A stretch of 64,000 bases of DNA, taken from positions 6,307,001-6,371,000 of the forward strand of contig NZ_CP108455.1 in assembly GCF_036241575.1 (NCBI RefSeq), given 5' to 3'. The notes below the pieces were generated by a model. The model searched no databases. It worked only from the letters and a program-made list of their open reading frames with translations, and was not told the DNA's origin. Below are positions 22,001 to 57,279 of this stretch, one piece after another. Position numbers and translations under genes: made by a program. This stretch comes from Streptomyces sp. NBC_01267 (GTDB taxonomy: Bacteria > Actinomycetota > Actinomycetes > Streptomycetales > Streptomycetaceae). The stretch's first letter is position 1; every line of letters begins with the position of its first letter.

Positions 22001-25000
22001 GGCTCCGCGGGCAGTGTCGCCACCGGCCGGGTCGCCTACCTGCTCGGCCTGGAAGGGCCCGCGGTGACCATCGACACCGCCTGTTCCTCGTCGCTGGTCG
22101 CACTGCACCTGGCGGCGCAGGCGCTGCGGGAGGGCGAGTGCGCGACGGCTCTGGCCGGTGGTGTGACGGTGATGGCGACCCCCGGTACGTTCGTCGACTT
22201 CAGCCGCCAGCGCGGGCTGGCCCCCGACGGCCGGTGCAAGTCGTTCGCCACCGCGGCCGACGGCACCGGGTGGGCGGAAGGCGTCGGCATGCTGCTCCTG
22301 GAGCGGGAGTCCGACGCGCGGCGCAACGGGCACCGGATCCTCGCCGTCGTCCGGGGCAGCGCGGTCAATCAGGACGGCGCGTCCAACGGGCTCACCGCAC
22401 CCAACGGCCCGTCCCAGCAGCGGGTGATCCGCCAGGCACTCGACCGCGCGGGGCTGCGCCCGGCCGAGGTGGACGCCGTCGAGGGACACGGCACCGGTAC
22501 GGTGCTCGGCGATCCGATCGAGGCGCAGGCGCTGCTCGCCACCTACGGCCAGGACCGCCCGGACGGTGAGCCGTTGTGGCTGGGGTCGATCAAGTCGAAC
22601 ATCGGCCACGCCCAGGCGGCGGCCGGTGTCGGCGGGATCATCAAGATGGTGCAGGCGATGCGGCACGGAGTACTGCCGCCGACCCTGCACGTCGATTCGC
22701 CGAGCGAGCAGGTCGACTGGTCGGCGGGCCAGGTGGAGCTGTTGTCCGAGGCGGTGCCGTGGAACCCGGCCGGGCGCCCCCGACGGGCGGGTATCTCCTC
22801 CTTCGGGATCAGCGGAACGAACGCCCACGTCATCCTGGAAGCCCCGGACGACGCCTCAACGGCCGCCCCGGAGAAGGCAGTTACGTACAAGGGCCCGGTG
22901 CAGGAGCCGCCCGTGGTCCCGCTGCTGGTCTCCGGTCGGAGTGAGGACGCCGTACGGGCGCAGGCGGCGGCCCTTCGAGAGCACCTGACGCGCCATCCCG
23001 GGCTCACACCGCTCGACGTCGGGTTCTCGCTCGCCACCACCCGTACGGTCTTCGAGCACCGCGCCCTCGTACTCGGGACCGACCGGGACACCGCACTGGC
23101 CGCCCTGGGCGCCATCGCGGCCGGTGGCACCGTTCCCGAGGTGACGCGCGGCCGGTCCGCCGAGCGGCGCATCGCGTTCCTCTTCACCGGACAGGGCAGC
23201 CAACGCCCCGGAATGGGCAGGGAGTTGTACGCCTCGTCGGTTGTCTTCGCCGAGGCGCTGGACGCCGTGTGTGCGCACCTGGACCCGCTCCTCGCCCCGC
23301 ACTTCGACCGGCCGCTGCGGGAACTGCTGTGGGACGAGGAGCCATCGGGGTCCGGAGCCCACGCGCTCGACGGGACCGGCTGCGCGCAGCCCGCCCTGTT
23401 CGCCGTCGAGGTGGCGCTGTACCGGCTGCTCGAATCCTGCGGTCTGCGCCCCGACCACCTCGTGGGCCATTCCGTCGGCGAGTTGGCGGCGGCGCACGTG
23501 TCCGGTGTGCTCACGCTGGAGGACGCCTGCCGGCTGGTGGCGGCACGTGGCCGGCTGATGCAGGCGCTGCCGCCGGGCGGCGCGATGGTCGCGCTGCGTG
23601 CGGCCGAGTCCGAAGTCCTGCCCCTGCTCCGGGACGGGGTGAGCATCGCCGCTGTCAACGGGCCGGACGCCGTCGTACTGTCCGGTGACGAGGCCCCGGT
23701 ACTGGCCGTGGCCGGGCACTTCGCGGACCGCGCGAGCAAGCGGCTCCGGGTGAGCCACGCCTTCCACTCGGCCCGGATGGAACCGATGCTGGAGGAGTTC
23801 CGCGCGGTCGCCGAGTCGGTCACCTACCATCCGGCCCGGATCCCGATCGTGCCGACGCTGGGTGCGGACCTCGCCGACCGGATCGGGGAGGCCGACTACT
23901 GGGTACGGCAGGTACGCGAGGGCGTGCGCTTCCACGACGCGCTCGCCCACCTGCGTGCGGAGGGCGTCACCGGCTTCGTCGAACTCGGTCCCGACCCGGT
24001 ACTGACAGCGGCCGTCCAGGAACTCGAAGAGGCCACCACCGGCATCGGACAGGACGCCGGTACGGGTACGGGTATGGGTGCGAGTACGGGTACAGGGACC
24101 GGCAACGGCACCCATGACGGGGCCGGTGACGCGTCGGTGGACGGGCTGCGCCGGACCCCGCCGTTCTTCGCCGCGTCGGTGCTGCGCCGTGGCCGCCCCG
24201 AGGCCCGGACACTGGGGACGGTGCTCGGCGGGCTGCTCGCGTACGGCACCCGGGTCGACCGTACGGCGCTCTTCGCGCGCAGCGGCGCCCGGCAGGTCGA
24301 CCTGCCCACCTACGCCTTCCAGCACCGGCGTTACTGGGCCGAAGGCGGTCCGGCTCCTGCGGCACCGGCCGGTGCCGCAGGTGGCACACATCCGCTGCTC
24401 GGTGCGTGCATGCCGCTGCCCGACGGGGGATTCGTCTGCACCGGGAACCTCTCGTCGGCCGCCCACCCGTGGCTGGCCGACCATCTGGTCGACGGAGCCG
24501 CGGTCGTGCCGGGCACCGCGCTGCTCGAACTGGCCATTCACGCGGGCGATCACACCGGCTGCCCCCGCGTGGACGAACTGGTCCTGGCGGCGCCGCTCTC
24601 CCTCGACCACTCGCGTCCCCGCCGGGTCCAACTGGTGACGGGGCCCGCCGACGAGTCCGGAGACCGTACGGTCCAGCTCTTCTCCCACTTCACCGAAGGC
24701 GACGCCAACGGCGGTTCGGTGGGCGGGGAACCGTGGACCCTCCACGCGACCGGAACCCTGACAGCTGCCGGAACAGCCGCCGCCACAGCCGCCGCCACAA
24801 CGGCCGGTACGGAGCCCGGTACGAAGGCCCGTACGGAGCCCGACCCGTTCGACGCCACGGTCTGGCCGCCCGAGGGCGCCCTTGAGGTGCCCGTCGACGG
24901 CCTCTACGACACGCAGGACAGCGAGCGCGACGGGGACCACGGCGGAGAGCCCGCGCGTCCCGTGACCGGTGTGGCCTACGGACCCGCCTTCCGGGGGCTG

Positions 25001-27982
25001 CGCGCCGCCTGGCAGCGCGAGGGCGAGCTGTACGCGGAGGTCGCCCTGCCCGAACCGGTACACGACGACGCACCGCGCTACGGTCTGCATCCCGCCCTGC
25101 TCGATGCCGCCCTGCACGGCCTGGCGTACCTGCTGCCGGGCGCGGCCGGACGGCTCGTACCGTTCTCCTTCAGCGATGTCGAGCTGCACGCCCAGGGCGC
25201 CGCCGTACTGCGCGTACGGCTGACGGCGACCGGTACCGAACAGGTGGCCGTCAGCGCCGCCGACGTTTCCGGCGGGCCGGTGCTCTCGGCCGGTTCGCTG
25301 ACCCTGCGCCCGCTGGCTGCCCCGGCCCACGGAACCGTCTCCCGGACGGGCTCCCGTGCCGCCGCTCCCACCAACTCCCGCACCGGCGACTCGATGTTCC
25401 GCGTGGAGTGGACCCGGGCAGTGCCCGAAGGAAGCGACAGCGGCAGCGCGGTCCGGGACTCCCGGCGCTGTGTGCTGGTCGGCTCAGACGTCCTGGGGAT
25501 CGCGGGTCCGCTCGCCGAAGCGGGCGTTCCGGTGGAGTCCTTCGTGGATCTCGATGCCCTGACGGCCGCCGTGTCGACCGGGATGACGCTTCCCGAGATC
25601 GTCCTGGTCTGCTGCGCGGGCCGCGCCGGGAGCGACCCCGCCGACGCGGTACGGGAGGTCACGGCCACGGCGCTCACCACGGTGCACTCCTGGCTGGCGG
25701 AGACACGGTTCGCGGGCTCCCGGCTGGCGTTCGTGACCCGGGGCGCACTCGGTACGCACGGCGGGCGGCCCGACGACCTCGCGTCCGCACCCCTGTGGGG
25801 CCTCGTACGGACCGCGCAGTCGGAGAACCCCGGCAGGTTCGTGCTCGTGGACATCGACGGCAGCACCGGCTCCGTGCTCGCCCTGCCCGCCGCACTCGAC
25901 ACTGCTGAGCCCCAACTCGCCGTCAGAGACGGCGTATTGAACAAGGCGCGGCTGGTCCGGTGTGCCGTTCCCGAGCAGCGGCGACCGGGCTCCGAGTGGG
26001 ACCCGGAAGGCACCGTCCTCGTCACCGGCGCCACCGGCGCCCTGGGCGGACTGGTCGCCCGGCACCTCGTCACCGGGAGGGGCGCCCGGCACCTGCTGCT
26101 CCTCAGCCGCAGTGGGCCGGCCTCCCCGGCGGGCGAGAGCCTGCGGAAGGAACTCACCGCGCTGGGCGCGGACATCACCCTGGTCGCCTGCGACGCGGGG
26201 AACAGGGACGCCCTCGCGGCCGTACTGAAGGCCGTGCCGCAGGAGCACCCGCTCACCGTGGTGCTGCATCTGGCGGGCGTACTCGACGACGGGGTGATCG
26301 GCTCGCTCACCCCGGACCGGTTCGACACGGTGTTCCGCCCCAAGGTCGACGCGGCGCTGAACCTGCACGAGCTGACCCGGTCCGCGCCGCTCGCCGACTT
26401 CGTCCTCTTCTCCTCGTCGGCGGCGACGTTCGGCACACCCGGCCAGGCCAACTACGCCGCTGCGAACGCCTTCCTCGACGCCCTGGCCGAACAGCGGACC
26501 GCCGACGGCCTGCCCGCCACCTCGCTCGCCTGGGGTGCCTGGGAGCACGGGATGGCCGGGCGGCTGGACGGTGTGGACCGCAACAGGATGGCCCGCGGCG
26601 GAGTGCTCGCCCTCGGCGACGAGGAAGGGCTCGCGCTCCTCGACGCGGCGCTGCGCGTCGACGCCGCGTCGCTCGTCCCCGTACGCATCGACACCGCGGC
26701 CCTCGGTGCCCACCCGGCCCCGTTGCTGAGCGGCCTCGCCCGCCCGGCGGCGCGCCGCGTCGCGGCCACGGGCGGGACCGGGCCCTCTCTGGCCGGGCGG
26801 CTGCGCGGGCTGGACCGGGCGGGGCGGCGGCGCGAAGTGCTCGCGGCGGTGCGCGGTGCCACCGCGGCCGTGCTCGGGCACGCCTCGCAGGAGGCGGTCG
26901 AGCCGGACCAGGCGTTCCTCGAACTCGGCCTCGACTCACTGACCGCCGTGGAACTGCGCAACGCACTGGCCGCGACGACCGGCCTCAGGCTGCCCGTCAC
27001 CGTGACCTTCGACCACGCGTCCCCGCTCGCCCTCGCCGTGCATCTGGAGGCCGAACTGGGCGGCGGGGACACGTCGGAGACCACGGGGGCGGGGATCACC
27101 GGGGCGGAGACAGCAGGAGACGCTGCGGTGGCGCGGCCCGGCCGGTCCGCACCGGACGAGATCATCGGACGGCTGTTCCGTCAGGCCTGCGAGGACCGGC
27201 GGCTGCGCGAGGGCTTCGAGCTGCTGCAGAGCGTCGCCAATCTGCGCCCCACCTTCACCGATGCCGCCGAGGTGAGCGAACTGCCCACCTCGGTCCGCCT
27301 CGCCAGAGGTCCGGCGCCGGTCCGGCTGGTCTGCTTCAGCTCCCAGGTGGCGCTCGCAGGTGTGCACCAGTACGCGCGGTTCGCCTCGGCGTTCCGCGAT
27401 GTCCGGGACGTCGTCGCCCTCGCGGTCCCCGGGTTCGCCGACGGCGAGCCGCTGCCGGCCACCGACGAGGCGCTGGTGGGGCTGCTGGCCCGGATGGTGC
27501 GCGAGCAGGTCGGCGACGAGCCGTACGCCGTGCTCGGGTCCTCCTCCGGGGGCATCCTGGCGCACGCCACGGCCGCCCGGCTGGGCGAGGAGGGCCGGGC
27601 CCCCCGGGGTGTGGCGCTGCTCGACACCTACGTACCGGGTGACGACTCCCTCGGCCAGTTCGAGGATCAGCTCCTCGGCGGGATGTTCGAGCGCGAGGCC
27701 GGCTTCGCCCGGATGGACGCGGCCAGGCTGTCGGCGATGAGCTGGTACTTCAACCTGCTGGGCGACTGGGCCCCGAAGCAACTCGCGGCGCCGGTACTGC
27801 TGGTGCGGGCCGGGGAGCCCATGGCCGGCGGGGAGTCGCTCGCACCGGAGCAGTGGCAGACGCAGTGGACGGCGGCGGACACCGTCGTGGACGTCCCCGG
27901 GAACCACTTCACGATGATGGAGGACCTGGCGGGCACGACCGCCCGGGTGGTCGACGACTGGCTCCGCACCCTGGAGGCGTGA
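16079..27982 (+). CDS. Terminal type I polyketide synthase, two KS-AT-DH-KR-ACP modules plus thioesterase
   Basis: The GTG at 16079 overlaps the previous stop (GTGA). ATG 16088 is an alternative start and gives the more familiar docking sequence [15 protein letters not shown]. Module 1: KS (Cys 16661-16663), AT (HAFH 18323-18334), DH (His 18926-18928 in [10 protein letters not shown]), KR about 20420-20990 ([11 protein letters not shown] keeps the B-type second Asp), ACP (Ser 21374-21376). Module 2: KS (Cys 22082-22084), AT (HAFH 23756-23767), DH ([10 protein letters not shown], 24482), KR about 26000-26560 (LDD), ACP (Ser 26936-26938). The C-terminal thioesterase, about 27250-27970, has a GSSSG nucleophile elbow (central Ser 27542-27544), Asp in LLDTYVPGD and His in NHFTMMED. 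Both modules should give alkenes from malonate, so release yields a 2,4-dienoyl lactone or acid. Ala/Thr/Gly-rich insertions occur in several linkers. Length 3967 aa. Confidence 0.97.
16371..17219 (+). repeat. Near-identical KS segment, copy 2
   Basis: This is the partner of 11494-12342, located in the first KS of the terminal PKS gene. The downstream AT regions of the neighbouring modules are also very similar at DNA level, but identity is more broken. Confidence 0.9.
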
Positions 27983-32590: not shown

Positions 32591-33859
32591 TCAGACCGTC
32601 CAGGGATCGGTCCGGCGCTCGGCGACCAGCTTCTCCAGTACCGGAATCACATCGGCCGGTGCCGGACGCGCCAGCGCCTCCTCGCGCAGCCGGTCGGAGT
32701 TCTCCTGGAAGGCCGCGTCGGACAGGATCCGCGCGGTCCTCTCCCGCACCTGCCCCGCCGTGGCGCTGGCGCTTTCGAGCAGCAGCCCCGCGCCCTGGCT
32801 CTCCAGACCGGCCCCGCGGTAGATCTGATCGGCCACCGGGGTGGTGACGGTGAGCTGCGGGACGCCGTGGACCAGCGCGTTGGCGTAGCTGCCGAAACCG
32901 CCGTGGTGGATCAGCACCGAACAGCTCGGCAGCAGCGCGTGCAGCGGCACGGACTCCACCACCCGGACGTTCGCCGGCAGCGCCCCCAACTCCCTTACCT
33001 GCGAGGGCAGCAGCGCGGCCACCACCTCGGCGTCCAGCTCCGCCAGGGACTCCAGGATGTCGGACTTCGACACGTAGTCACCGCCGTAGCGCTCGGTGTT
33101 CGACGCGCCGAGACTCAGACAGATCCGGGGGCGTTCCGGCGGCGTCCGCAGCCAGGCGGGCACCACCGCGGGACCGTTGTACGGCACGAAGCGCACCGGG
33201 GCCCGCGCCACCCCGGTGTCGATGGCGAGGCTGTCGGGCAGCGGGTCCAGGGTCAGCTGACCGGTGGTCGACTCGGGGGAGTAGGTACCTCCGAACTGCT
33301 CCGTGCGCTCGGTGAGCCAGCCGCCCAGCGGGTCCCTGGCCCGTTCGTCGGCCGGGGCCTCGGCGGCGAGCTTCAGGAACAGCTGGCGCTTCTTCACCCA
33401 CACGTCGGCGAAGCACAGCGACCGCACGTGCGCGGCACCCGCCACGCCCGCGGCGATCGGCCCCGCGTAGGTCAGCGGATCCCAGACGACGAGATCGGGC
33501 CGCCAGTCCCGGGCGAACGCCACCAGGTCGTCGATCATCGGCTCGTTGTACATCGCGCACCCGTACGCCCCGAGCTGGGCGCGGTCGAACTCCTCCTGGT
33601 AGGTGGGGTTCGGCGGATCGAGCTCACTCCAGTTGACCGAGTCCCACTGCTGCGTCTCGCGGTTCGCGCTCATCGCCGCGCTGATGCCGTCGTTGCTGCC
33701 CACCGCCACCGCGGTCATGCCGGTACGGGCGATGACGTCGACGAACTCCGCGGTACTGGCGACACGGACCTCGTGACCGGCGGCCCGCGCGGCCCAGGCG
33801 AGCGGGGTCAGACAGAAGAGATGGGACTTCTCGGGGATGGTCGCGAACAGCACGCGCAC
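32591..33859 (-). CDS. GT1-family glycosyltransferase (DesVII/EryCIII-like), GT 1
   Basis: This 422-aa protein has a macrolide-glycosyltransferase layout: N-terminal VRVLFATIPEKSHLFCLTPL with the His expected to act as general base, and a C-terminal nucleotide-sugar site VLIHHGGFGSYANALVHGV. The middle PYNGPAVVPAWL and ICLSLGASNTERYGGD segments resemble EryCIII/DesVII-type enzymes. GTG 33859 was chosen because GGAG lies 7 nt upstream and the family sequence begins there. Some relatives need a P450-like helper (DesVIII type); none is seen in this window. It probably transfers a deoxysugar to the aglycone or to an existing sugar. It is transcribed away from the 4-ketoreductase gene, with a PAS-LuxR-like box between them. 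Confidence 0.93.
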   Translation of the reverse strand: MRVLFATIPEKSHLFCLTPLAWAARAAGHEVRVASTAEFVDVIARTGMTAVAVGSNDGISAAMSANRETQQWDSVNWSELDPPNPTYQEEFDRAQLGAYGCAMYNEPMIDDLVAFARDWRPDLVVWDPLTYAGPIAAGVAGAAHVRSLCFADVWVKKRQLFLKLAAEAPADERARDPLGGWLTERTEQFGGTYSPESTTGQLTLDPLPDSLAIDTGVARAPVRFVPYNGPAVVPAWLRTPPERPRICLSLGASNTERYGGDYVSKSDILESLAELDAEVVAALLPSQVRELGALPANVRVVESVPLHALLPSCSVLIHHGGFGSYANALVHGVPQLTVTTPVADQIYRGAGLESQGAGLLLESASATAGQVRERTARILSDAAFQENSDRLREEALARPAPADVIPVLEKLVAERRTDPWTV

Positions 33860-34068: not shown

Positions 34069-35100
34069 GTGTCCAGCGAGCCAGAGAGGCTGCCCATGCG
34101 CGCAGTGGGGAACGACGGCCCGGCGCCGCCCGTCGCCGTCGTGCTCGGTGGCGCCGGATTCGTCGGCCGCCATGTCTGTACGGTGCTGCGGGCCGCGGGC
34201 TGGGCGGTGACCGCCGTGGTGCGCCGGGCCGCCGCGGCGCCCCCCGGCTGCGGAACGCTCCGGATCGACGCCGTACGGGCGGACGCCGCCACGCTCACCG
34301 AGGCGCTGGTACGCCTGCGGCCCACCCTGGTGGTCAATGCCGCGGGTGCCCTGTGGGACGTCACCGACGAGGAACTCACCGAGGGCAATGTGACGCTGGT
34401 CGGGCGTCTGGTGTCGGCGGTGGCGGCCCTGCCGGGACCGGTCAGGCTGGTGCACATCGGCTCGTCCTACGAGTACGGCAGCGTCCCCGGGCACACCGCC
34501 CTGTCGGAGTCCGCCCCGTGCGCCCCGGCCAGCGGGTACGCCAGGACCAAACTCGCCGGAACCCGCACCGTCACCGGCGCCGTCCGGGACGGCCGTATCG
34601 ACGCCGTCGTCCTGCGGGTCACCGTCTCGGTCGGCCCCTACGCCTCACGGCACAGCCTGCTCGGCGGGCTGGCCCTGCAACTCGCTGAACAACCAGGTGA
34701 GTTGAAGCTTCCGCCGATCTACGGGGTGCGGGACCTCATCGATGTCCGGGACGTCGCCGACGCCGTACTGGCCGCGGCGGACGCGCCGGAGGTCCCGCCG
34801 GTCGTCAACATCGGCGCGGGTGTCGGAGTCGCACTGACCGACGCCGTGGACGCGCTGATCCGGATCGCGGGCTCGACCGCCGCGGTCGTCCGCACCCCGG
34901 CGCCGACCGTACGCCGCGACGCCGGGACCGGAGAGCAGCCGCTCGACGTCGGCCTGGCGCTGCGGGAGCTGGGATGGTCCCCGGCGCGGACGCCGGCGGA
35001 CGCGCTGCGGGCCCTGTGGGACAGCGTCGCCCCACCCGCCGACGGCCCCGGCGTACCCCTTACGACCCTCGCAGTGGACGGAGAGAGCATTCATGGCTGA
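34069..35100 (+). CDS. NDP-hexose 4-ketoreductase (extended SDR)
   Basis: This 343-aa NAD(P)-dependent enzyme is expected to reduce the 4-keto group late in NDP-deoxyhexose synthesis. It shows the Rossmann motif [13 protein letters not shown] and the catalytic SSYEYG ... YARTKLAGT (Ser/Tyr-x3-Lys). GTG 34069 was chosen because GAGGGG lies 5 nt upstream; ATG 34096 is a weaker alternative. The stop overlaps the next gene (3-dehydratase) by 8 nt, so the two are co-translated. It resembles EryBIV/TylCIV/UrdR-type reductases; stereochemistry cannot be read from the sequence. Confidence 0.9.
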
Positions 35101-36403
35101 CCCCGATGTGCAGTCCATACTGGAGCAGACCCGCAAGCTTCACCGTGACCGGGCCTCGGCCGGGAGCGAGTTCGTTCCCGGGGTCACACCGATCCTGCCG
35201 TCGGGTGCGGTCCTCGACGAGGACGACCGTGCCGCGCTCGTGGAACAGGCCCTGGAGATGCGGATCGCGTCCGGTGCCCAGGCACTGCTCTTCGAGCGGA
35301 AGTTCGCCAGGACCATCGGTGTCCGCAAGGCACACCTGACCAACTCGGGATCGTCCGCCAACCTCCTCGCGCTCTCCTCGCTGGCGGTGCCGGAGCTGGA
35401 GGACCGCAGACTGCGGCCGGGCGACGAGGTGATCACCGTGGCGGCGGGCTTCCCCACCACGGTCAACCCGATCATCCAGTGCGGTCTGGTGCCCGTCTTC
35501 GTGGACGTGGACCTGGCGACGTACAACACGACGGTCGAGCGGATCGAGGCGGCGCTCACCCCGCGCACCAAGGTCATCATGCTGGCGCACACCCTGGGCA
35601 ACCCCTTCCCGGTCGCCGAGGTCGCCGAACTGGCAGCGCAGCACGACCTGTTCCTCATCGAGGACAACTGCGACGCGGTGCTCTCCACGTACCAGGGCCG
35701 CAACACCGGCACCTTCGGTGACTACGCCACCGTGAGCTTCTACCCGGCCCACCACCTCACCACCGGTGAGGGCGGCTGTGTCCTCACCAACACCCTGGAG
35801 CTGGCCCGGATCACCGAGTCGATGCGGGACTGGGGACGGGACTGCTGGTGCGAGCCGGGCGAGGACAACAAGTGCCTCAAGCGCTTCAACTACCAGATGG
35901 GCGACCTGCCGCACGGGTACGACCACAAATACATCTTCTCGCACGTCGGCTACAACCTGAAGGCCACCGACATCCAGGCGGCCCTCGGTCTGACACAGCT
36001 CGCCAAGCTCCCCGATTTCGTCGCGGCCCGCAAGCGCAACTGGCAGCGGCTGCGCGACGGCCTCGACGGGGTGCCGGGGCTGCTGCTGCCCGAGGCCACC
36101 CCCGGCAGCGACCCGAGCTGGTTCGGCTTCGTCATCACCCTCACCGACGACGCGCCCTTCAGCCGCCCGGAGCTGGTGGACTTCCTGACGGCGCGCAGGA
36201 TCGGCACCCGGCTGCTGTTCGCGGGCAACCTCACCCGGCACCCCGCGTACCGCCACGAGACGTACCGGGTCAGTGGCGAGCTGACCAACAGCGACATCAT
36301 CACCGACCGGACGTTCTGGATCGGTGTGTACCCGGGGATCACCGGCGAGATGGTCGACTACATGGTCGCCTCCCTCCGGGAGTTCGTCGCCAAGCCGCAC
36401 TGA
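35093..36403 (+). CDS. NDP-4-keto-6-deoxyhexose 3-dehydratase (E1/SpnQ/UrdQ type)
   Basis: This 436-aa PLP- and [2Fe-2S]-dependent enzyme removes the C3 hydroxyl of an NDP-4-keto-deoxysugar. The PLP fold is clear, but the usual Schiff-base Lys is His in [13 protein letters not shown], the hallmark of the E1/ColD dehydratase group. The cysteine cluster C-x-C-x(7)-C in [11 protein letters not shown] is the [2Fe-2S] ligand set of E1/SpnQ enzymes. ATG 35093 follows a GGAGAG site and overlaps the 4-ketoreductase stop. With the 3- and 4-ketoreductases it points to a 2,3,6-trideoxyhexose such as rhodinose or amicetose. Electrons would come from a reductase not encoded here. Confidence 0.94.
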
Positions 36404-36462: not shown

Positions 36463-37686
36463 TCAGCCGCGGGCCAACTCCTCCATCCGGGCCGCGAGTT
36501 CGACGGGTGTCGGTCGCCGGAGGTTGTCCTCGCGCAGCCCGGCCGCTGCCTTCAGGTAGCGCGGCTCGCCGAGCAGTTCCACGGCCGCCGCACGGATGGA
36601 CTCCGCGTCCGCCGGATGCCCGGACAGCCGGAGCCCGGCCCCGGCGCCGGTCAGCCGTTCCGCGACGCGGGTCTGCTCGGTGGCGAAGGTGATCGCCAGC
36701 TGCGGCACCCCGGCGGCCAGCGCGGTCATCGTGCTGCCCGCGCCTCCGTGGTGCACCACCAGGTCGCAGTGGTCGAGCAGCAGCCGCAGCGGACAGCGCT
36801 CCAGCACCCGGACGTCCGGCGGTACGTCACCGAGCGCCGCCACGTCGTCCCTGGTCGCGGTGAGGACCAGCTCGGCGTCGAGACCGCTGAGCGCCTCGAC
36901 GATCCGCGGCAGCAGGTAGGAGCGCGGACCGGACATCGAGGTGAGCGCGGTGGACCAGGTCACCGCGATCCGGGGCCGGGTCCGGCCCGCCGCGCCCAGC
37001 CACTCCGGAGCCACCCCACCGCCGTTGTACGGGACGAAGCGCACCGGCAGCCGCTCACCGCGCACGGGCGGCCGGAGCGCGGACGGACAGGGGTCGATGA
37101 CGTACTCGATCGCATCGGCGCCGAAGGGCGCACAGCCGTACCGCTCGAAGGAACGGCCGAGGTCCTGCGGCAGGATGTCGAGACCGCGGTCCTCGTGCGT
37201 GCCGACCGGGCCCCACAGGGCGAGCGCCGCCGGGATGCCCAACACCCGTGCGGCGAGCAGCCCTTCGGTACTCACCGGGTCGTGCACCACGGCATCGGGG
37301 CGCCAGCGCCGGGCGAACCGGACCGCCTCGTCGTGCCCGTGGGCGGAGCGGCGCGCGTACTGCGGCTCGACGGACCGCCGGTACTCCGCGAGGTCGAAGT
37401 CACCGAGCGCCGACATCGGGGCACCGGTCAGCGGGTGGAGGGGCAGCCAGGGGTACGCCCACTCGCCGCGCAGCGCCTCCCGTACGTAACTCATCCGGTT
37501 GTGCACCGCCACGTCCATGCCGTCGAGCACCGGCACCGGCAGCAGACCTGCCCGGGTGACCGGCGCGGACTGCGAGGGCGGGCACAGCACCCGCACCTCG
37601 TGCCCGCCCGCCTGCAGGGCCCAGCCCAGCGGTACGGCCGCGGCGTAGTGGGTGGGCCAGGACGACACGGAGAACAGCACGCGCAC
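36463..37686 (-). CDS. GT1-family glycosyltransferase, GT 2
   Basis: This 407-aa glycosyltransferase begins VRVLFSVSSWPTHYAAAVPLGW and has the donor-binding segment LVVHHGGAGSTMTALAAGV followed by PQLAITFATEQTRVAERL. GTG 37686 was chosen because GGAGGT lies 5 nt upstream on the coding strand. It resembles enzymes that transfer deoxysugars in macrolide, anthracycline and aureolic acid clusters. The acceptor cannot be predicted. It converges on the 3-dehydratase gene and is divergent from the 3-ketoreductase, with a PAS-LuxR-like box in the 270-nt gap and a TAGGGT -10-like element on its own strand at 37745-37750. Confidence 0.92.
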   Translation of the reverse strand: MRVLFSVSSWPTHYAAAVPLGWALQAGGHEVRVLCPPSQSAPVTRAGLLPVPVLDGMDVAVHNRMSYVREALRGEWAYPWLPLHPLTGAPMSALGDFDLAEYRRSVEPQYARRSAHGHDEAVRFARRWRPDAVVHDPVSTEGLLAARVLGIPAALALWGPVGTHEDRGLDILPQDLGRSFERYGCAPFGADAIEYVIDPCPSALRPPVRGERLPVRFVPYNGGGVAPEWLGAAGRTRPRIAVTWSTALTSMSGPRSYLLPRIVEALSGLDAELVLTATRDDVAALGDVPPDVRVLERCPLRLLLDHCDLVVHHGGAGSTMTALAAGVPQLAITFATEQTRVAERLTGAGAGLRLSGHPADAESIRAAAVELLGEPRYLKAAAGLREDNLRRPTPVELAARMEELARG

Positions 37687-37800
37687 GGGAGACCTCCGGT
37701 GGCTGGTCCCCGGGCCGGCCGCCGCGGGCCCGGGGGTGAGCCGAACCCTAGTGTCGCGACCCCCGATGACCTGGGCGGACGCCGTGCCCGGTGCCGCACT

Positions 37801-37956: not shown

Positions 37957-38991
37957 ATGTCTGACATCGAGCCTGTCGGCATCGCGGTGCTCGGCGCCGC
38001 CGACATCGCCTGGCGGCGCACCGTACCGGCCATCCGACGCTGCGCCGGGCTGCGGCTGGAGGCCGTCGCGAGCCGCACCCCGGAGAAGGCGCGGGCCTTC
38101 GCCGACGCCTTCGACTGCGAGGCCGTGACCGGGTACGAGCGGCTGCTCGCGCGTGAGGACGTGGCTGCCGTCTACATTCCGCTGCCGAACGCCCTGCACG
38201 AGGAGTGGGCCGAGGCCGCCCTGCGCGCCGGTAAGCACGTCCTGGTGGAGAAGTCGCTGACCACCAGTGCGGCAGCGGCCACCGCACTGGTGCGGACGGC
38301 GGAGACCGCGGGGCTCGCGTTCATGGAGAACTTCGCCTTCCTCGGGCACCCCCAGCACGACCGGGTGCGCGAACTGATCGCCGACGGCGTCATCGGGGAA
38401 CCCCAGGTGGTCAGCGCCTCGTTCGGAATCCCGCGGGCCGACTCCGGACTCATCAGGTACAGCCGTGAACTCGCGGGCGGCGCGCTGCGGGAGACCGGCT
38501 GCTACCCCGTCCGGCTCGCCCAGCTCCACCTCGGCGACGGCATCGGTGTGCTGGGCGCGCGACTGCGGTACGACCCGGACAGCGGGGTCGACGTCTCCGG
38601 CTCGGTGCTGCTGGCCGACAGCGCCGGGCTCACCGCCCAGTGCGACTTCGGGCTGACCCACGCCTACCGCAACACGTACGCGGTGTGGGGCAGCGAGGGC
38701 CGGATCGAGGTGGACTGGGCCTTCACCCCGCCCCCCACGACGCGGCCGGTGATCCGGCTGCACCGCGCGGACTCCAGGGAGGAGCGTGTGCTGCCCGCCG
38801 CCGACCAGTTCCTCGGCGCGGTCACCACCTTCGCCGAGGCCTGCGCCGACCCGTCGGGGCACCGGCGGCACGGCACGGACGCCGTGCGCCAGGCGACGCT
38901 GCTCGAATCGGTGGTCCGCCGGGCGGGCGCCGCGGACCCGGCCGGGCCGTCGGCGGTCCACGACGCGAGGAGCGCTCATGTCCCTGCCTAG
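37957..38991 (+). CDS. NDP-hexose 3-ketoreductase (Gfo/Idh/MocA family)
   Basis: This 344-aa oxidoreductase has an N-terminal Rossmann motif GIAVLGAADIAWRRTVPAI, the AVYIPLPNALHEEW segment and VEKSLTTSAAAA, a variant of the EKP motif. This family reduces the 3-keto intermediate made by NDP-hexose 2,3-dehydratases during 2-deoxysugar synthesis. ATG 37957 follows a GGGGGG stretch. The matching 2,3-dehydratase is not in the window and may lie upstream or elsewhere. The 3' end overlaps the next glycosyltransferase by 14 nt. Confidence 0.9.
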   Translation: MSDIEPVGIAVLGAADIAWRRTVPAIRRCAGLRLEAVASRTPEKARAFADAFDCEAVTGYERLLAREDVAAVYIPLPNALHEEWAEAALRAGKHVLVEKSLTTSAAAATALVRTAETAGLAFMENFAFLGHPQHDRVRELIADGVIGEPQVVSASFGIPRADSGLIRYSRELAGGALRETGCYPVRLAQLHLGDGIGVLGARLRYDPDSGVDVSGSVLLADSAGLTAQCDFGLTHAYRNTYAVWGSEGRIEVDWAFTPPPTTRPVIRLHRADSREERVLPAADQFLGAVTTFAEACADPSGHRRHGTDAVRQATLLESVVRRAGAADPAGPSAVHDARSAHVPA

Positions 38992-40285
38992 CGAGCCGCG
39001 GTCCACGGCGCCCCTGCCTGAAGCGGCCCTGCCTGAAGTGCCCCTGTCCGAAGTGCCGAGGTCCGAAGTGACGGTGTCCGAAGCGCCCGTGTCCCGGCAC
39101 ATCCTCTGGTTCGGCTTCCCCGCGTACAGCCACCTCAAGGCCTCCCTCGGCATGGTCGAGGAGCTGATCCGGCGCGGACACCGCGTCACCTACGTCGTGG
39201 CCGACCGGCTCGCCGACCGGGTCGCCGAGACCGGTGCGCGGGTCGTTCCGTACTCCTCGGTGTTCCCCGCCTCCCTGAGCGGGGAGGAGACCGCGACGAC
39301 CATGATGGTCGCGTTCCTGCGCGAGAGCTTCGCGCCCCTGGAGACCGCGCTGGGCAGCGTGGCCGACGATCCGCCCGACCTGATCGTGCACGACGCGCTC
39401 GCCTCCGACACGGCCGCCGTGCTGAGCCGGAAGTACGGTGTGCCGACCGTACGGACGTACGCGGGGTTCGGCACCAACAGTCACGTGCCGCAGAACGGCA
39501 CCGAGGCCGATCCCACGCACACCCCGCCCGATCCGGGCGACCCGCGGCTGGCCGAGCTGGGGGGCGAACTCGCCGCCCGTATCACGGCGGCCGGGGTGGG
39601 CGACCTGCTCTCCACCGGACCGGCCAGCGGCGACGACGCGGTGCTCGACATCTCCTTCGTCACCCGTGAGTTCCAGATGCGGGGCGACACCTTCGGCGAC
39701 GAGTACCTCTTTGCCGGACCCTGCCTGCGCGCGTCGGACTTCAGCGGGCGGTGGACACCTCCGGCGGGCACCGGACCGCTGCTGCTGGTCTCGCTCGGTA
39801 CCACCGCCAACCAGCACCCGGACTTCTTCCGGACGTGCGCGAAGGCGTTCGCGGACACGCCCTGGCACGTGGTGATGACGCTCGGCGGGGGAGTGGACCC
39901 GGCGGAGCTGGGGATGCTGCCGCCCAACGTCGAGGCACATCAGTGGATCCCGCATCTCGCGGTGCTCGAACACGCCACCGTGTTCGTCTGCCAGGGCGGT
40001 GTCGGAAGCCTGATGGAGGCGGCCCACCAGGGCGTCCCCGTCGTGGTGGTGCCGCAGCAGTGGGACCAGCACGCCACTGCCCGTCAGGTGAGGGACCTGG
40101 GCATGGGGCAGTGGCTCCACCCCGGTGATCTCGACGCCGACGGGCTGCGGGCCGCCGTCGAGGAGGTGGCCGCCGATCCGGACGCCGGGCGGCGCGCTCG
40201 GGAGATGAGCCGTTCCGTGCGGACGGCGCCGGGAGCGCCCGGCGTCGCCGACCGGCTGGAGTCGCTCATGTCCGGCCCGAACTGA
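38978..40285 (+). CDS. GT1-family glycosyltransferase (OleD/MGT-like) with repetitive N-terminus, GT 3
   Basis: This 435-aa glycosyltransferase starts at ATG 38978 after GAGGAG. About 35 residues rich in L/V-P/S-E repeats precede the usual first strand HILWFGFPAYSHLKASLGM, which keeps the His general base. The donor-site motif reads VFVCQGGVGSLMEAA, so the His of the usual H-x-G-G is replaced by Cys. PQQWDQHATARQV then matches the OleD-type D/Q motif. Relatives transfer glucose to macrolides for self-protection, or deoxysugars during assembly. It overlaps the 3-ketoreductase gene, so they are co-transcribed. Confidence 0.9.
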   Translation: MSLPSEPRSTAPLPEAALPEVPLSEVPRSEVTVSEAPVSRHILWFGFPAYSHLKASLGMVEELIRRGHRVTYVVADRLADRVAETGARVVPYSSVFPASLSGEETATTMMVAFLRESFAPLETALGSVADDPPDLIVHDALASDTAAVLSRKYGVPTVRTYAGFGTNSHVPQNGTEADPTHTPPDPGDPRLAELGGELAARITAAGVGDLLSTGPASGDDAVLDISFVTREFQMRGDTFGDEYLFAGPCLRASDFSGRWTPPAGTGPLLLVSLGTTANQHPDFFRTCAKAFADTPWHVVMTLGGGVDPAELGMLPPNVEAHQWIPHLAVLEHATVFVCQGGVGSLMEAAHQGVPVVVVPQQWDQHATARQVRDLGMGQWLHPGDLDADGLRAAVEEVAADPDAGRRAREMSRSVRTAPGAPGVADRLESLMSGPN

Positions 40286-40422: not shown

Positions 40423-41334
40423 TCAGACCGCGCCGGCGGAACCGCTCCCGTGTACGGCGGGCAGATCGAGTGCCCCCGGAGCGAGCGCCGGAACCGCGCC
40501 CGTCCTCGCGGCCAGGCCCAGCAGCGAGCGGACCGCCTGGTAGCCCGACTCACCGAGGTCCTCGGTGTACGCGTTGACGTAGAGACCGATGTGCTGGTCC
40601 AGCACCTCGGTCTCCATCTCCTGCGCATGGGCGCGCACGTACTCCCGGGACGCACCCGGATCCGCCCAGGCGTACCGGACCGAACCACGGATCGCGTCGG
40701 CGATCCCGGCCAGACGCTCCGCACCCAGATCCCTGCGGGCCACGATGGCCCCGAGCGGGATGGGCAGCCCGGTGCGGGCCTCCCACGCCTCGCCGAGGTC
40801 GACGACGCGGTGCAGTCCGTACGTGTGGAAGGTGAACCGCGCCTCGTGGATGACCAGTCCGGCGTCCACGCTGCCGTCCCGGACCGCCGGCATGATCTCG
40901 TGGAACGGCATCACCACGGTCCGTACGCTGCCGCCGGGCAGTGCCCGCTCGGCCCACAGCCGGAACAGCAGATACGCGGTGGAGTGCTCCGTGGGGATCG
41001 CGACGGTCCCGCCGTCCAGGTCCGCAGGGTCGCGGACTCCCCGGGTGAGCACCAGCGGCCCGCAGCCGTGCCCGAGTGCGCCGCCGCAGGGCAGCAGCGC
41101 ATACCGGTCGAGCACCCGGGGCAGTGCCGCGTAGGAGATCTTCAGCACGTCCAACTCGCCTTTCTCGGCGAGTGAGTTGGTGACGTCGATGTCGGCGAGG
41201 GTGACCTCGGGCGGGACCGCCCCCGGCAGCAGCCCCGACGTCCACGCGTGGAAGACGAAGGTGTCGTTGGGACACGGCGAGTGGGCGAGCGTCAGCGGTG
41301 TGGCCGGGGTAGTCGGTGTGGCTGGTGTGGTCAT
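40423..41334 (-). CDS. mqnD: 1,4-dihydroxy-6-naphthoate synthase homologue (MqnD)
   Basis: The 303-aa protein has the MqnD hallmark LAHSPCPNDTFVFHAW near its start, then IDVTNSLAEKGELDVLKISYAAL and VIHEARFTFHTYGL, in a periplasmic-binding-protein-like fold. MqnD acts in the futalosine pathway to menaquinone and releases 1,4-dihydroxy-6-naphthoate from cyclic dehypoxanthine futalosine. ATG 41334 overlaps the stop of the upstream methyltransferase (ATGA), so both are made together. No mqnA, mqnB or mqnC homologue is present in the window. Lying between glycosyltransferases, it is more likely a dedicated copy that feeds a naphthoquinone group into the natural product than the housekeeping gene; this is inference. 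Confidence 0.9.
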   Translation of the reverse strand: MTTPATPTTPATPLTLAHSPCPNDTFVFHAWTSGLLPGAVPPEVTLADIDVTNSLAEKGELDVLKISYAALPRVLDRYALLPCGGALGHGCGPLVLTRGVRDPADLDGGTVAIPTEHSTAYLLFRLWAERALPGGSVRTVVMPFHEIMPAVRDGSVDAGLVIHEARFTFHTYGLHRVVDLGEAWEARTGLPIPLGAIVARRDLGAERLAGIADAIRGSVRYAWADPGASREYVRAHAQEMETEVLDQHIGLYVNAYTEDLGESGYQAVRSLLGLAARTGAVPALAPGALDLPAVHGSGSAGAV

Positions 41335-42002
41335 CGGGTGGCTCCTGCCGCCGGGGCGGCCGACATGTCCCACAGGCCGAGGTACTTGTTCGGCGAGTCC
41401 TCGGGGATGCGCTCCAGCGGCGTCCCCAGGCCGAACGGCGGCAGCGCGAGGTCGAGCTTCGCGTGCAGCAGGCTCGGCGCGTCCATCCGGTCGGAATTGG
41501 TGAACTCGCCCCGCGCCACGCCGGGATCGCTGGTGTAACTGGTGGTGAGCAGCAGCCGGCAGGACTTCCTGAACCGTTCGAGCGCGGCCAGGATCATGTC
41601 GTTCGGCAGATGGATGAAGACGTCCCGGCAGATCAGCAGGTCGGCCGGGCGCGGTTCGTCCACCGTGATGTCGACGACTTCGAGCCGGAACCCGCGGCGC
41701 CGCAACTCGGGCCAGGAGTCCCGCTCGTGGACGTCGTACCCGGTGTAGTCGACCCCTCCGAGGTCGAGCGTGCTCATCCACGCGAGGTCGCCGCAGCCGG
41801 CGTCGTTCAACGTGGTCACCTCGTACGTTTCGAGGATGTTCACGAGTTCCTTGCGGACGAGCTGGGTGTGAGGCTCGCTGGAGCCCCAGCCGCAGACCGT
41901 GTCGGGTGCCTGGTCGGGCCACCCTCGGGAGAAGACCTCCAGGCCGGGGCTCATGTGTCCGCCGGGCACTCGCACATCGGCGTGCCCTGCTGATTGGGTC
42001 AC
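41331..42002 (-). CDS. Class I SAM-dependent methyltransferase
   Basis: This 223-aa protein has the SAM-binding motif LNDAGCGDLAWM, then VDYTGYDVHERDSW and the acidic/aromatic DLLICRDVFIHLPNDMI segment of class I methyltransferases. GTG 42002 (GGAGAG 10-12 nt upstream) or ATG 41954 may be the start; I prefer GTG but am not sure. Its stop overlaps the mqnD start. Candidate substrates are the naphthoate/naphthoquinone made with MqnD or a sugar hydroxyl; the coupling to mqnD favours the quinone. It shares a divergent promoter region and a near-perfect PAS-LuxR box with GT 4. Confidence 0.85.
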   Translation of the reverse strand: MTQSAGHADVRVPGGHMSPGLEVFSRGWPDQAPDTVCGWGSSEPHTQLVRKELVNILETYEVTTLNDAGCGDLAWMSTLDLGGVDYTGYDVHERDSWPELRRRGFRLEVVDITVDEPRPADLLICRDVFIHLPNDMILAALERFRKSCRLLLTTSYTSDPGVARGEFTNSDRMDAPSLLHAKLDLALPPFGLGTPLERIPEDSPNKYLGLWDMSAAPAAGATR

Positions 42003-42146
42003 GGAACGTCTCGCTCTCCGTCGGGGCCGGGGTGGTGGGGCCGGGGCCGTGGGCCCCCAACCCAGCACGACGCCCGCACCCGGATCCAGGACAAGAGCCG
42101 GAGTCCGGGTGTTTCCCGCAACCGCGGCGGCGGGTGCACGAACCGC

Positions 42147-42162
42147 CTGGTGATTTCCCCAG
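42147..42162. promoter_or_regulatory. Candidate PAS-LuxR (PimM-type) operator, site 3 (best match)
   Basis: The sequence ctggtgatttccccag matches the consensus CTVGGGAWWTCCCBAG at 15 of 16 positions (T for G at position 5). It lies in the 212-nt gap between the methyltransferase and GT 4. A TTGACC hexamer at 42165-42170, just downstream on the plus strand, is a possible -35 element for GT 4, an arrangement expected for an activator. No clear -10 was found. Confidence 0.65.
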
Positions 42163-42214
42163 AGTTGACCGGCGCGGCCGGTCGGCGGGCGGTGGGTGCT
42201 GACATGCTGCGGCC

Positions 42215-43420
42215 ATGTCGGAACTCCACGTGGCGTTTCTGCCGTTTCCCGCATTCGGACACATCAACACCACCCTTCCGATCGTCGCCGAGCTCGTGCG
42301 GCGCGGTCACCGGGTGACGTTCGCGACCAACGAGCGCTTCGCGCCGCTGGCCGCCGGGGCGGGTGCGGACGTACTGCGCTACGAGTCGTGGCTCGCCTCG
42401 CGCAAGCTGCCCGACACGGTGGACGCGGACTATCTGGCGCACGAGCCGGTCCGCTCCATCGACGAGGCCATCGCCACCGTGCCGCTCTACGAGGCCGGGT
42501 TCGCCGAGGACGTACCGGACGTGCTGCTCTACGACGTCAGCACCTTCGCCGCGGGGCGCGTGCTCGCCCGCAAGTGGAAACGGCCCGCGATCGAGCTGTT
42601 CGCCACCTTCGCCTCGAACGAGCACTACTCACTCACCCAGCAGATCGGCGCGATGTACGCCGACGAGATCGACGGGAGCCACCCGGCGATCATCGACTTC
42701 TTCGTGAAGCAGGGGCAGCTCTGGGCGGAACACGGTCTCGACGGCATGACGCTGGAGGAGTTCAACGCCCCGGCGGACGGAGCGAACCTGGTGTTCCTGC
42801 CGCGCCGGTTCCAGCCCGCCCAGGAGACCTTCGACGACCGGTTCGCGTTCGTCGGCACGTGCATCGGCAGCCGGGCCACGGAGCCGGAGTGGCAGCCGCC
42901 CGCGCCGGACCGGCCGGTGGTCCTGGTGTCGATGGGCAGCTTCAGCTACGACCACCAGGACGCGTTCGTCCGCACCTGTGTGGAGGCGTTCACCGGGACG
43001 CCGTGGCACGTGGTCATGTCGGTGGGCGAGCAGTTCGACCTCGGTGGTCTCGGCGAGGTACCGGACAACATCCAGCTGATGCGCTGGGTGCCTCAACTCG
43101 CCGTACTGGAACGGGCCGACGTGTTCGTGTCCCACGCGGGCATGAACAGCGTCATGGAGTCGATGTACTTCGGTACGCCGGTCGTCGCACTGCCCCACAT
43201 GCCCGAACAGCGGCTCATCGCCTCGCGCCTGGCGGAGCTGGGCCTCGGCGTGCACCTGCCGCCCGCCGAGGTCACGGCCGAGCGGCTCCGCACGGCCGTG
43301 GCCACCCTCGCTTCGGACGAAGGGGTACGTACACGGGTCCGCTCGCTCAGCGACGACCTGCGCGCCACCGATGGCCCCTCGCTCGCCGCGGACTACATCG
43401 AGGCACGCGCCAGGGGCTGA
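42215..43420 (+). CDS. GT1-family glycosyltransferase (OleD/MGT-like), GT 4
   Basis: This 401-aa macrolide-type glycosyltransferase has the N-terminal MSELHVAFLPFPAFGHINTT, with the His general base, the linker segment VVLVSMGSFSYDHQDAF and the donor site VFVSHAGMNSVMESMYFGTP followed by PHMPEQRLIASRL. The start ATG has no strong ribosome-binding site; the nearest purines are in gtgggtgctgac. It may transfer a sugar during assembly or glucosylate the product for self-protection. It is divergent from the methyltransferase-mqnD pair. Confidence 0.93.
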   Translation: MSELHVAFLPFPAFGHINTTLPIVAELVRRGHRVTFATNERFAPLAAGAGADVLRYESWLASRKLPDTVDADYLAHEPVRSIDEAIATVPLYEAGFAEDVPDVLLYDVSTFAAGRVLARKWKRPAIELFATFASNEHYSLTQQIGAMYADEIDGSHPAIIDFFVKQGQLWAEHGLDGMTLEEFNAPADGANLVFLPRRFQPAQETFDDRFAFVGTCIGSRATEPEWQPPAPDRPVVLVSMGSFSYDHQDAFVRTCVEAFTGTPWHVVMSVGEQFDLGGLGEVPDNIQLMRWVPQLAVLERADVFVSHAGMNSVMESMYFGTPVVALPHMPEQRLIASRLAELGLGVHLPPAEVTAERLRTAVATLASDEGVRTRVRSLSDDLRATDGPSLAADYIEARARG

Positions 43421-55243: not shown

Positions 55244-55732
55244 TCAGTCGACCCAACCGCGCTGGGAGGCGAAGTCCACCAGGGCCGCGCGGAGGGCGAG
55301 GACCTGTTTCCCGGTGAGGTCGGGGCCGTTCGCCAGCAGCAGTTCGGTGACGTGCCGGGTGAACTCGCCCTTCGAGAACACCTCGCAGAGCCCGTCGGCG
55401 ATCCCCTCGCCCCGGACGGCGGAAGGCTGGTCGCCGGCTGTCGGGACCGGTCCGCCGGGCGCCGCGTCGGCCGGTCCCGTGCTGTCACCGGACCGGTCGG
55501 CGACAGCGGTGCCGGTGCCCGGCGGCGCCGTGTCGACGACATGGACGCCGTACGCCTTCGGGCCGCGACCGCCGTCGAGAACGCTGAATTCGACCCGGGT
55601 ACCGAAGCCGATGGAGGCGCCGCGCTCACTCAACTCGTTGGCATGGACGAATACATCGTCCCCGCCGTCGTCCGGTGCGATGAAGCCGTATCCTCTGGCC
55701 TCGTCGAACCGGACTACCATTCCCTGTGTCAT
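55244..55732 (-). CDS. Cold-shock-domain protein with extra C-terminal region
   Basis: The 162-aa protein begins with a cold-shock domain: GMVVRFDEARGYGFIAPDDGGDDVFVH carries the RNP-like GYGFI and VFVH motifs for nucleic acid binding. A Pro/Gly/Ala-rich linker follows, then a conserved-looking helical segment (EVFSKGEFTRHVTELLLA ... LVDFASQRGWVD) absent from small Csp proteins. ATG 55732 fits the domain start; ATG 55765 would add 11 residues. It is likely an RNA chaperone or regulator. Such proteins are common on Streptomyces chromosomes, so it may not belong to the cluster. Confidence 0.88.
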   Translation of the reverse strand: MTQGMVVRFDEARGYGFIAPDDGGDDVFVHANELSERGASIGFGTRVEFSVLDGGRGPKAYGVHVVDTAPPGTGTAVADRSGDSTGPADAAPGGPVPTAGDQPSAVRGEGIADGLCEVFSKGEFTRHVTELLLANGPDLTGKQVLALRAALVDFASQRGWVD

Positions 55733-56070
55733 TTTCTCAACCGACCCAATGCCAAAGGATTTCATAAAGACTGCATGGTCTCTTCGCGGTGCGTCAAGAT
55801 CCTATCCAACTGTCCCGTCGGGCGACAACTGGGTGAACCACCGGTACGAAAAGGTGCAATTCCACCACCCGCGCGGGACCCCGTGCCGAGCCGTATCTCC
55901 GGCGTGTCCGAGGGCTGCGCCAACGGGTAAGTCCCCCGCCTCTGGCACTTCTTATAGTGACTCGCCGTAACCCGGGCCACCGAGTGTGATCACGCATTAT
56001 GGTCCGTCTTCTCGGAGAAAGCAGAAGGACGGGTCGGACACACGCGGGGTCAGGTAGCTGGTGGGTGGAA
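55733..56070. promoter_or_regulatory. Divergent gap, cold-shock gene / DAHP-synthase-like gene
   Basis: This 338-nt gap (266 nt if the upstream ATG 55999 is used) has no gene I can support. A plus-strand TATAGT (55953-55958) is a possible -10, but the sequence 17 nt upstream has no -35 consensus. The region is less GC-rich than its neighbours. Confidence 0.35.
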
Positions 56071-57279
56071 ATGACCGACATCGAGACCAGGGTGATCCGT
56101 ACGGCGGAGAGCCGGCCGCCGGGACCCGATCCCGTGCGCGAGGCCACCGCCGAGCTGCGCTCGTGCCCGCCCCTGGTGCTCGCCGCGGAGTGTGAACTGC
56201 TCAAGCGGCGGCTGGCGCAGGCCGCTCGCGGTGAGGGCTTCGTGCTCCAGTGCGGAGCCCGCCCGGCAACGTTCGACGGCGCGACCGGCGACACGATCCG
56301 TCACCGGCTGAGGACTCTGCTCCAGATGTCCGCCCTGCTGACCTACGCCACGTCCCTGCCCGTGGTCAAGATCAGCCGGATCGCCGGACCGGCCGGCAAC
56401 CCGGTGAGCGGCTACCGGTCCGCCGCGGCCACCCTGAACCTGGTCCGGGCCTTCGCCGCCGGCGGGTACGCCGATCTGCGCCGGGTCCACGACTGGAACC
56501 TCGACTTCGTCGCCAACTCGCCCTGCGGCGCCTCCTACGAGTCACTGACCACACAGATCGGGCGCGCGCTCACGTTCATGCGGGCCTGCGGCACCGCGCC
56601 CGAACCGCTGCGCACGGTGGAGCTCTTCGCCTCCCACGAGGGCCTGTTACCGGACTACGATTCCGCGCTCACCCGGGCCGACGCGGACACCGGGCGGCTG
56701 TACAACACCGCGGGCCACTTCGTCGGGCTCGGTACGGGGACGAGGGCGGGCACGGGGACGGGCGCAGAAGAACTCGACCCGGCACGTGTCGACCACGCCG
56801 CCACGATCAGCAATCCGCTGGGCGTCGTACTCGGCCCCGACAGCGGCCACGACGAGGCGCTGGACCGGTTGGACCGGCTCGATCCGGCGCGCGAGCCGGG
56901 ACGGCTGACCTTCCTCGTCCGCATGGGCGGTGGGCCCGGGAGCGACAGGCTGTCCGCGCTGATCGAGAAGGTCACCGCGGAGGGCCATCTGGTCACCTGG
57001 ATCTGCGACCCCGTGCACGACACGGCATCGGACGCGCCCCGTGGCGGTGCGAGCAGCCGCTTCGACGCGGTGCGCGACCGGGTGACGGCCTTCTTCGACG
57101 TGCACCGGGCCCTGGGTACCCATCCGGGCGGAATCCACGTCGAGTTGACCGGTACGGATTCGGGCGCGGGCACCGTCACCGATGCGCCCGCGGCCCCCGG
57201 CCTCAGCCACTCCGGCGCGCTCGATCTGGCCTTTCTCGTGGCGGAGCTGTACCGATCAGGCACCGGTGCCGGTCGCTGA
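56071..57279 (+). CDS. Class II DAHP-synthase homologue with altered active site
   Basis: The 402-aa protein aligns along its length with class II 3-deoxy-arabino-heptulosonate-7-phosphate synthases: LLQMSALLTYATSLPVVK, RIAG, VHDWNLDFV, ELFASHEGLLPDYDSAL, ISNPLGVVLGP, PGRLTFLVRMG, TWICDPVHD, HRALGTHPGGIHVELTG, ALDLAFLVAE. Several residues needed in Mycobacterium AroG differ. The GGDCAE metal-Cys motif is CGARPA, the QYAKPRS loop is PAGNPVS, the Lys of GVKLGP is Val, the Asp of CDPRLN is Ala, and a segment of about 40 residues after the KPRS loop is missing. Canonical DAHP synthase activity is doubtful. ATG 56071 is preferred; ATG 55999 is in frame. It has a TTA codon at 56647-56649 and a Gly/Thr-rich insertion. 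A role in supplying shikimate-derived precursors for the quinone is possible but unproven. Confidence 0.85.
   Translation: MTDIETRVIRTAESRPPGPDPVREATAELRSCPPLVLAAECELLKRRLAQAARGEGFVLQCGARPATFDGATGDTIRHRLRTLLQMSALLTYATSLPVVKISRIAGPAGNPVSGYRSAAATLNLVRAFAAGGYADLRRVHDWNLDFVANSPCGASYESLTTQIGRALTFMRACGTAPEPLRTVELFASHEGLLPDYDSALTRADADTGRLYNTAGHFVGLGTGTRAGTGTGAEELDPARVDHAATISNPLGVVLGPDSGHDEALDRLDRLDPAREPGRLTFLVRMGGGPGSDRLSALIEKVTAEGHLVTWICDPVHDTASDAPRGGASSRFDAVRDRVTAFFDVHRALGTHPGGIHVELTGTDSGAGTVTDAPAAPGLSHSGALDLAFLVAELYRSGTGAGR

Follow-up and report, generated by a model that had tools for sequence, protein, structure and literature searches.

A mqnD-methyltransferase gene pair as the probable end of a dedicated naphthoquinone branch in a glycosylated-macrolide gene cluster of Streptomyces sp. 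NBC_01267

Why should a gene for a menaquinone-type enzyme lie amongst glycosyltransferase genes, overlapping a methyltransferase gene, and on what might the products of the pair act? The pair is found in a window of 64,000 nucleotides (the whole stretch of DNA analysed), which is positions 6307001-6371000 of the genome contig of Streptomyces sp. NBC_01267. Very probably it stands at one end of a dedicated branch to a naphthoquinone, encoded within a large cluster for a glycosylated macrolide. The features of the window that bear on this reading are as follows.

1..6444, + strand: 3' part of modular PKS gene g044, 8241 aa in full (ORF, AT domains)
6459..16082, + strand: modular PKS gene g045 (ORF, AT domains)
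16088..27982, + strand: modular PKS gene g046 (ORF, AT domains)
32591..33859, - strand: EryCIII-like glycosyltransferase gene g051 (PF21036, PF06722)
34096..35100, + strand: NDP-sugar epimerase/4-ketoreductase family gene (PF01370)
35093..36403, + strand: DegT-family gene, RfbH-type NDP-hexose 3-dehydrase, 3-deoxygenation as for rhodinose (PF01041)
36463..37650, - strand: EryCIII-type glycosyltransferase gene, start approximate (PF21036/PF06722 at residues 447-829 of the 832-aa frame; this ORF call, g054, is too long for such a gene)
37960..38991, + strand: Gfo/Idh/MocA oxidoreductase gene, start approximate, predicted NDP-hexose 3-ketoreductase (PF01408 and PF22725 in the frame 36616-38991)
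38978..40285, + strand: glycosyltransferase gene g055 (PF06722, PF00201)
40423..41334, - strand: mqnD-type gene g056, 303 aa, predicted 1,4-dihydroxy-6-naphthoate synthase (PF02621, TTHA1568/2czl, His163)
41331..42002, - strand: class I SAM methyltransferase gene g057, 223 aa, GTG start, overlapping mqnD by ATGA
42003..42214, no strand: 212-bp gap between the divergent methyltransferase and glycosyltransferase starts, promoters presumed from layout
42215..43420, + strand: MGT (macrolide)-family glycosyltransferase gene g058, a divergent neighbour kept in relatives (TIGR01426, 396 bits)
55244..55720, - strand: cold-shock-domain gene, similar in kind to gonA (PF00313)
56065..57279, + strand: class II DAHP synthase gene (PF01474)

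The product of g056 is predicted to be of the MqnD type, with a PF02621 score of 255 bits against a Pfam cut-off of 26. Its top solved match is TTHA1568 (2czl, labelled as a menaquinone biosynthetic enzyme) at E 5e-72, and TTHA1568 and AF1704 are its only solved-structure matches at E<=0.001, so that it stands nearer to MqnD structures than to those of MqnA. His145 of TTHA1568, which we take to be a catalytic active-site residue, aligns with His163 of the window protein. In the NCBIfam search of this protein no model naming it scored above its cut-off. The mqnD start and the methyltransferase stop share an ATGA overlap, the junction reading CGATGACC. The methyltransferase GTG start at 42002, preceded by GGAG, gives a protein of 223 aa, and its 20 closest relatives amongst the matches listed (P0001-P0020) are 214-225 aa long. 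Against Pfam the methyltransferase has a Methyltransf_12 match alone, below the cut-off, and its predicted structure (mean pLDDT 87) indicates a class I SAM methyltransferase fold, the matches of which amongst solved structures are generic and tied. The first-pass annotation had described a MqnD homologue overlapping a SAM methyltransferase gene between glycosyltransferase genes, which the ORFs, PF02621 and the predicted fold confirm. It had also proposed a divergent promoter shared with the glycosyltransferase gene; the divergent layout and the gap are there, but such a promoter is a reading of the layout, because a sigma-70-type scan of the 212-bp gap (42003..42214) found none.

The genome carries four PF02621 genes, which are read as two housekeeping copies and two in the macrolide cluster. 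The gene at 3420828, the housekeeping mqnD, adjoins the sole gene that scores above the MqnB cut-off (at 3420172), and the gene at 4544379 is taken for the housekeeping mqnA. The first reading had been staked on this not being the only mqnD in the genome, and since a housekeeping mqnD is present beside the single mqnB, it is not. It had further placed mqnA-, mqnB- and mqnC-like paralogues upstream of the window, and two of the three are found there: an operon mqnE-ferredoxin-mqnA-mqnC (6202342-6206010, with mqnE at 6202342-6203505) lies to the left of the window at a distance of 101-105 kb, and 141 kb separate it from g056. No gene in the macrolide cluster scores above the MqnB cut-off. The cluster MqnE scores 532 bits (equivalog cut-off 434.55) and MqnC 451 bits (cut-off 428.1), and the best solved matches of the cluster MqnA are the SCO4506 chorismate dehydratase structures. 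Between the cluster copy and the other copy in the same genome identity is 88% for MqnE, 84% for MqnC, 67.5% for MqnD and 62% for MqnA. A tree built from 32 MqnA sequences separates, with support of 98/92, 14 of the naphthoquinone (NQ) or cluster type from 18 labelled as housekeeping by their lower identity rather than by surroundings, one of which (L084) is on a long branch.

Other genes of the cluster are consistent with such a branch. The gene g030 (6216145-6225618, 3157 aa) was scanned for domains over 2952 of its 3157 residues and holds a CoA-ligase, KR, ACP, KS, AT, DH and KR together with a second PP-binding stretch; the combination of a CoA-ligase with a KS-AT-DH-KR-ACP extension module that is a feature of the PM100117/118 type is thus present, and by its domains g030 looks like a fusion of GonSL with the extension module of GonP8. 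The AT motif of g030 is HAFH, that of its homologue in strain ITFR-6 is YASH and the Streptomyces angustmyceticus homologue has neither. HAFH in an AT is usually read as malonyl-specific. The AT of GonP8 has been described as methylmalonyl-type (PMC4763440). Directly upstream of g030 is g029, plasmid homologues of which are annotated as arylcarboxylate reductase. Across the seven modular PKS genes there are 20 AT domains, and the sugar genes of the cluster encode RmlA, RmlB, a 2,3-dehydratase, the RfbH-type 3-dehydrase (68.6% identical to an S. angustmyceticus gene annotated rfbH), the Gfo/Idh/MocA reductase, for which a gene of this type is annotated at the matching position in three plasmid relatives, FdtA (g033) and a DegT aminotransferase (g034). 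The last two point to a predicted 3-amino-6-deoxyhexose. The part of the cluster bounded by mqnE and the DAHP synthase gene covers ~162 kb, and this class II DAHP synthase may possibly provide extra shikimate and chorismate for the naphthoquinone branch. A plasmid of NBC_00316 also has a DAHP synthase gene near its own mqnD-methyltransferase pair, just 49% identical to that of the window.

From the gene content, paralogy and synteny observed, we infer the reactions, their order and the product. Together with the single MqnB, whose gene lies outside the cluster, the MqnA (chorismate dehydratase), MqnE, MqnC and MqnD of the cluster would supply 1,4-dihydroxy-6-naphthoate separately from the menaquinone pathway, and the methyltransferase would then, most likely, methylate the naphthoquinone or hydroquinone ring at once. 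The CoA-ligase domain of g030 would load the acid, one PKS module would extend it, and the extended unit would finally be attached to the macrolide's sugar chain.

Two further groups of genes may be mentioned. Left of mqnE (L005:11096-15885) are an aminotransferase III gene, a KSIII gene, another gene and a TPP-enzyme gene; homologues of the aminotransferase III/KSIII/TPP-enzyme group (73-80% identity) are also found near mqnE in genome G302, and the group may belong to the cluster. The cluster also has a GH20 hexosaminidase gene (L006:8203-9792) along with several macrolide-family glycosyltransferase genes, and these might form an inactivate-and-reactivate pair for self-protection.

The pairing of mqnD with the methyltransferase is not chance, because it is kept in every set of relatives searched: the order glycosyltransferase-methyltransferase-mqnD in 6/6 genome-contig loci, and the pair in 6/6 strong matches of the genus and in 6/6 Streptomyces plasmids, although these counts are not additive because some genomes recur between the sets. 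The genus search covered 392 Streptomyces genomes, 19 of which have a match to the methyltransferase, six of them strong (at least 73% identity). The other 13 matches are weak (about 28-37% identity) and were dropped, having no mqn gene within 1.5 kb. Amongst plasmids, 14 records match the methyltransferase, and the six from Streptomyces (73.8-75.6%) all have mqnD next door along with homologues of MqnE, MqnA, g029, DegT (g034) and FdtA (g033). The cluster type occurs on plasmids recorded as linear in three Streptomyces strains (NZ_CP134614, NZ_CP120998 and NZ_CP108024; L048-L050) and three further plasmids bear the pair, with annotated regions viewed for three of the six. Other plasmid matches to mqnD come from S. 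clavuligerus, Paenibacillus and two Leptospira records, and no PKS gene is annotated in the S. clavuligerus plasmid record.

What the methyltransferase acts on is a separate matter from the existence of the branch. The likeliest reading, to which we give about an even chance, is that its substrate is the quinone (the naphthoquinone or hydroquinone ring). Every strong orthologue examined adjoins mqnD, and in the proposal for the gon pathway of PM100117/118 methylation of the MqnD product is the next step (PMC4763440), and the quinone of cyphomycin is methylated (PMC6355912). No PF13649 methyltransferase was found elsewhere in the cluster; to call the window protein the sole methyltransferase recognised there is a weak statement, because PF13649 also misses the window protein itself.

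It is also possible, though rather doubtful, that the mqnD branch works as proposed and the methyltransferase has a sugar as its substrate, most likely in an N- or O-methylation of the predicted 3-amino-6-deoxyhexose. NQ-type MqnA is found in 13 of the 392 genomes (at least 71% identity, the next best being at most 69%), and when fdtA was searched for in these 13 it was present in the same six that have the methyltransferase and absent from the same seven that lack it. Since the two track each other exactly, their co-occurrence cannot separate a quinone from an amino sugar. The presence of both DegT and fdtA homologues on all six plasmids with the pair agrees with a sugar substrate, as do the glycosyltransferase genes that flank the pair and the surroundings of some distant homologues: of eight weak plasmid matches the surroundings of six were taken, one being without annotation, and a glycosyltransferase gene lies within about 7 kb in three of the five annotated and not in the other two. 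Against this, fdtA and the DegT gene are ~119 kb off whilst the methyltransferase sits beside mqnD in all strong orthologues examined, and it has no significant sequence match to solved methyltransferases, those of sugars, sugar N-methyltransferases included, amongst them.

If the quinone is the substrate, the methyltransferase might tentatively be seen as founding a small, undescribed family of naphthoquinone C-methyltransferases that take the MqnD product itself as substrate and show no detectable kinship with UbiE/MenG, the presence of a close relative in Penicillium being due to transfer between bacteria and fungi. The searches against NCBIfam and Pfam gave no match to UbiE/MenG profiles at E<=0.001. 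At least 11 Penicillium-named proteins amongst the matches listed (P0030, P0033, P0034, P0036, P0037, P0046, P0048, P0053, P0054, P0056 and P0059) are 62-74% identical to the window methyltransferase, many of them extended at the N-terminus to a length of about 300-320 aa. A tree was built by a quick method from the window protein and 100 of the 120 matches listed (128 found), with many forks under 80, and in it the Penicillium proteins, together with unnamed ones, are sister to the actinobacterial group (the split between the groups has an SH-aLRT of 93), both being nested in a broader collection of shorter proteins without a named source. The sequences thus suggest a putative transfer of the methyltransferase between bacteria and fungi.

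A quite different reading of the mqn genes of the cluster, that they are remnants in a strain which no longer attaches a naphthoquinone, is very unlikely. In its favour, no KSIII of the gon type (gonS1/gonS2) is matched in the genome at E<=1e-60 with the S. angustmyceticus KSIII as a stand-in query, the KSIII-family gene g013 (6197505-6198503) left of mqnE not being gon-type by this test, and in ITFR-6 a 129-bp C-terminal piece of a KSIII is annotated beside the CoA-ligase PKS (L048:3096-3224), which suggests the trace of a lost KSIII gene. Against it, the five ORFs of the mqn operon and mqnD are all open and intact, and identities between species of 80-83% for MqnA, 73-79% for MqnD and 74-84% for the methyltransferase suggest selection. 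Least probable of all is that the cluster mqn set is a menaquinone back-up by gene dosage and not a macrolide branch, for although its paralogues retain their family features and should give the same intermediate, the set sits in a conserved PKS/glycosyltransferase cluster, on plasmids too, with the CoA-ligase/PKS gene, and the gon precedent is of a role in the quinone moiety in which the low residual production of the gonM4 mutant is overlap only (PMC4763440).

A dedicated naphthoquinone branch remains the preferred reading. A second type of NQ cluster is seen in the seven of 392 genomes (L101-L118) that have NQ-type mqn genes without the window-type methyltransferase and without FdtA. For each genome 24-60 kb about mqnA and KSIII were read, and every one of the seven has genes for MqnE, ferredoxin, MqnA, MqnC, a CoA-ligase protein and KSIII, along with a thioesterase-type gene, ABC-transporter-like genes and PKS genes. 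In six of them mqnD adjoins mqnE, and the pieces read of G302, which has short contigs, do not include mqnD. A gon-type KSIII is present in 18 genomes, namely these seven, G155 (which alone of the six pair-bearing genomes has it) and ten further. Diversion of a duplicated futalosine pathway to polyketides would therefore not be one lineage's curiosity, as the genomes with NQ-type mqnA fall into two groups that differ in their partner genes, and clusters with such genes lie on plasmids too. Naphthoquinone macrolides with predicted amino sugars become candidates worth isolating, and a small methyltransferase now has a defined candidate substrate.

That a naphthoquinone branch of this kind exists has already been established with mutants of the PM100117/118 (gon) cluster (PMC4763440; PMC5103430). 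Deletion of gonM4 (mqnD) lowered the product, with low residual production and NQ-less congeners, and mutants of gonMT, gonSL, gonS1, gonS2 and gonP8 made no PM100117/18 (PMC4763440). As described for Streptomyces caniferus, gon has in common with the present cluster a macrolide PKS, homologues of mqnA, mqnC, mqnE, ferredoxin and mqnD with mqnB outside, additional mqn copies at other places in the genome, glycosyltransferases, a 2,3-dehydratase, a 3-dehydrase, a CoA-ligase with an extension module and a cold-shock gene, gonA being listed in Table 1 of PMC4763440. The differences lie in arrangement and detail: gonM1-M4 are listed in a row whereas here mqnD is far from the operon and beside the methyltransferase, GonSL and GonP8 are separate whereas here there is a single gene, and the present cluster has FdtA and DegT genes. 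PM100117 is given as 21 ketide units, one more than the AT domains counted here, and the quinone methyltransferase GonMT has 345 aa against the 223 aa of the window methyltransferase, the two being compared by length alone.

A PM100117-like cluster is also found in S. angustmyceticus CQUSa03, on the 616-kb plasmid p1 (NZ_CP104318; L045, L047), which shares mqnD, mqnE, ferredoxin, mqnC, mqnA, the 'arylcarboxylate reductase' gene and PKS genes. On p1, however, mqnD is one gene from mqnE, there is a KSIII gene and a gene for a 410-aa methyltransferase, taken for GonCM by its length and place, and no homologue of the window methyltransferase is found. With this 410-aa protein as query, no gene for a GonCM-type sugar C-methyltransferase (axenose) was matched at E<=1e-8 amongst the 102 called proteins of 6185001-6405000. 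The cyphomycin cluster of Streptomyces ISID311 is described as similar to the PM100117/8 family, with a product that carries a C-methylated naphthoquinone (PMC6355912); cyphomycin, whose cluster is likened here by description, is C77H122O26 and has no nitrogen, whereas the present cluster has genes of the amino-sugar type. In NEAU-S7GS2 a related cluster has been described with the same logic (PMC6746918). Because its working is gon-like but the searches for a gon-type KSIII and a GonCM-type gene gave no match, the cluster is filed as a variant of the gon type, one that differs in gene order, methyltransferase and sugar genes and follows a principle already published.
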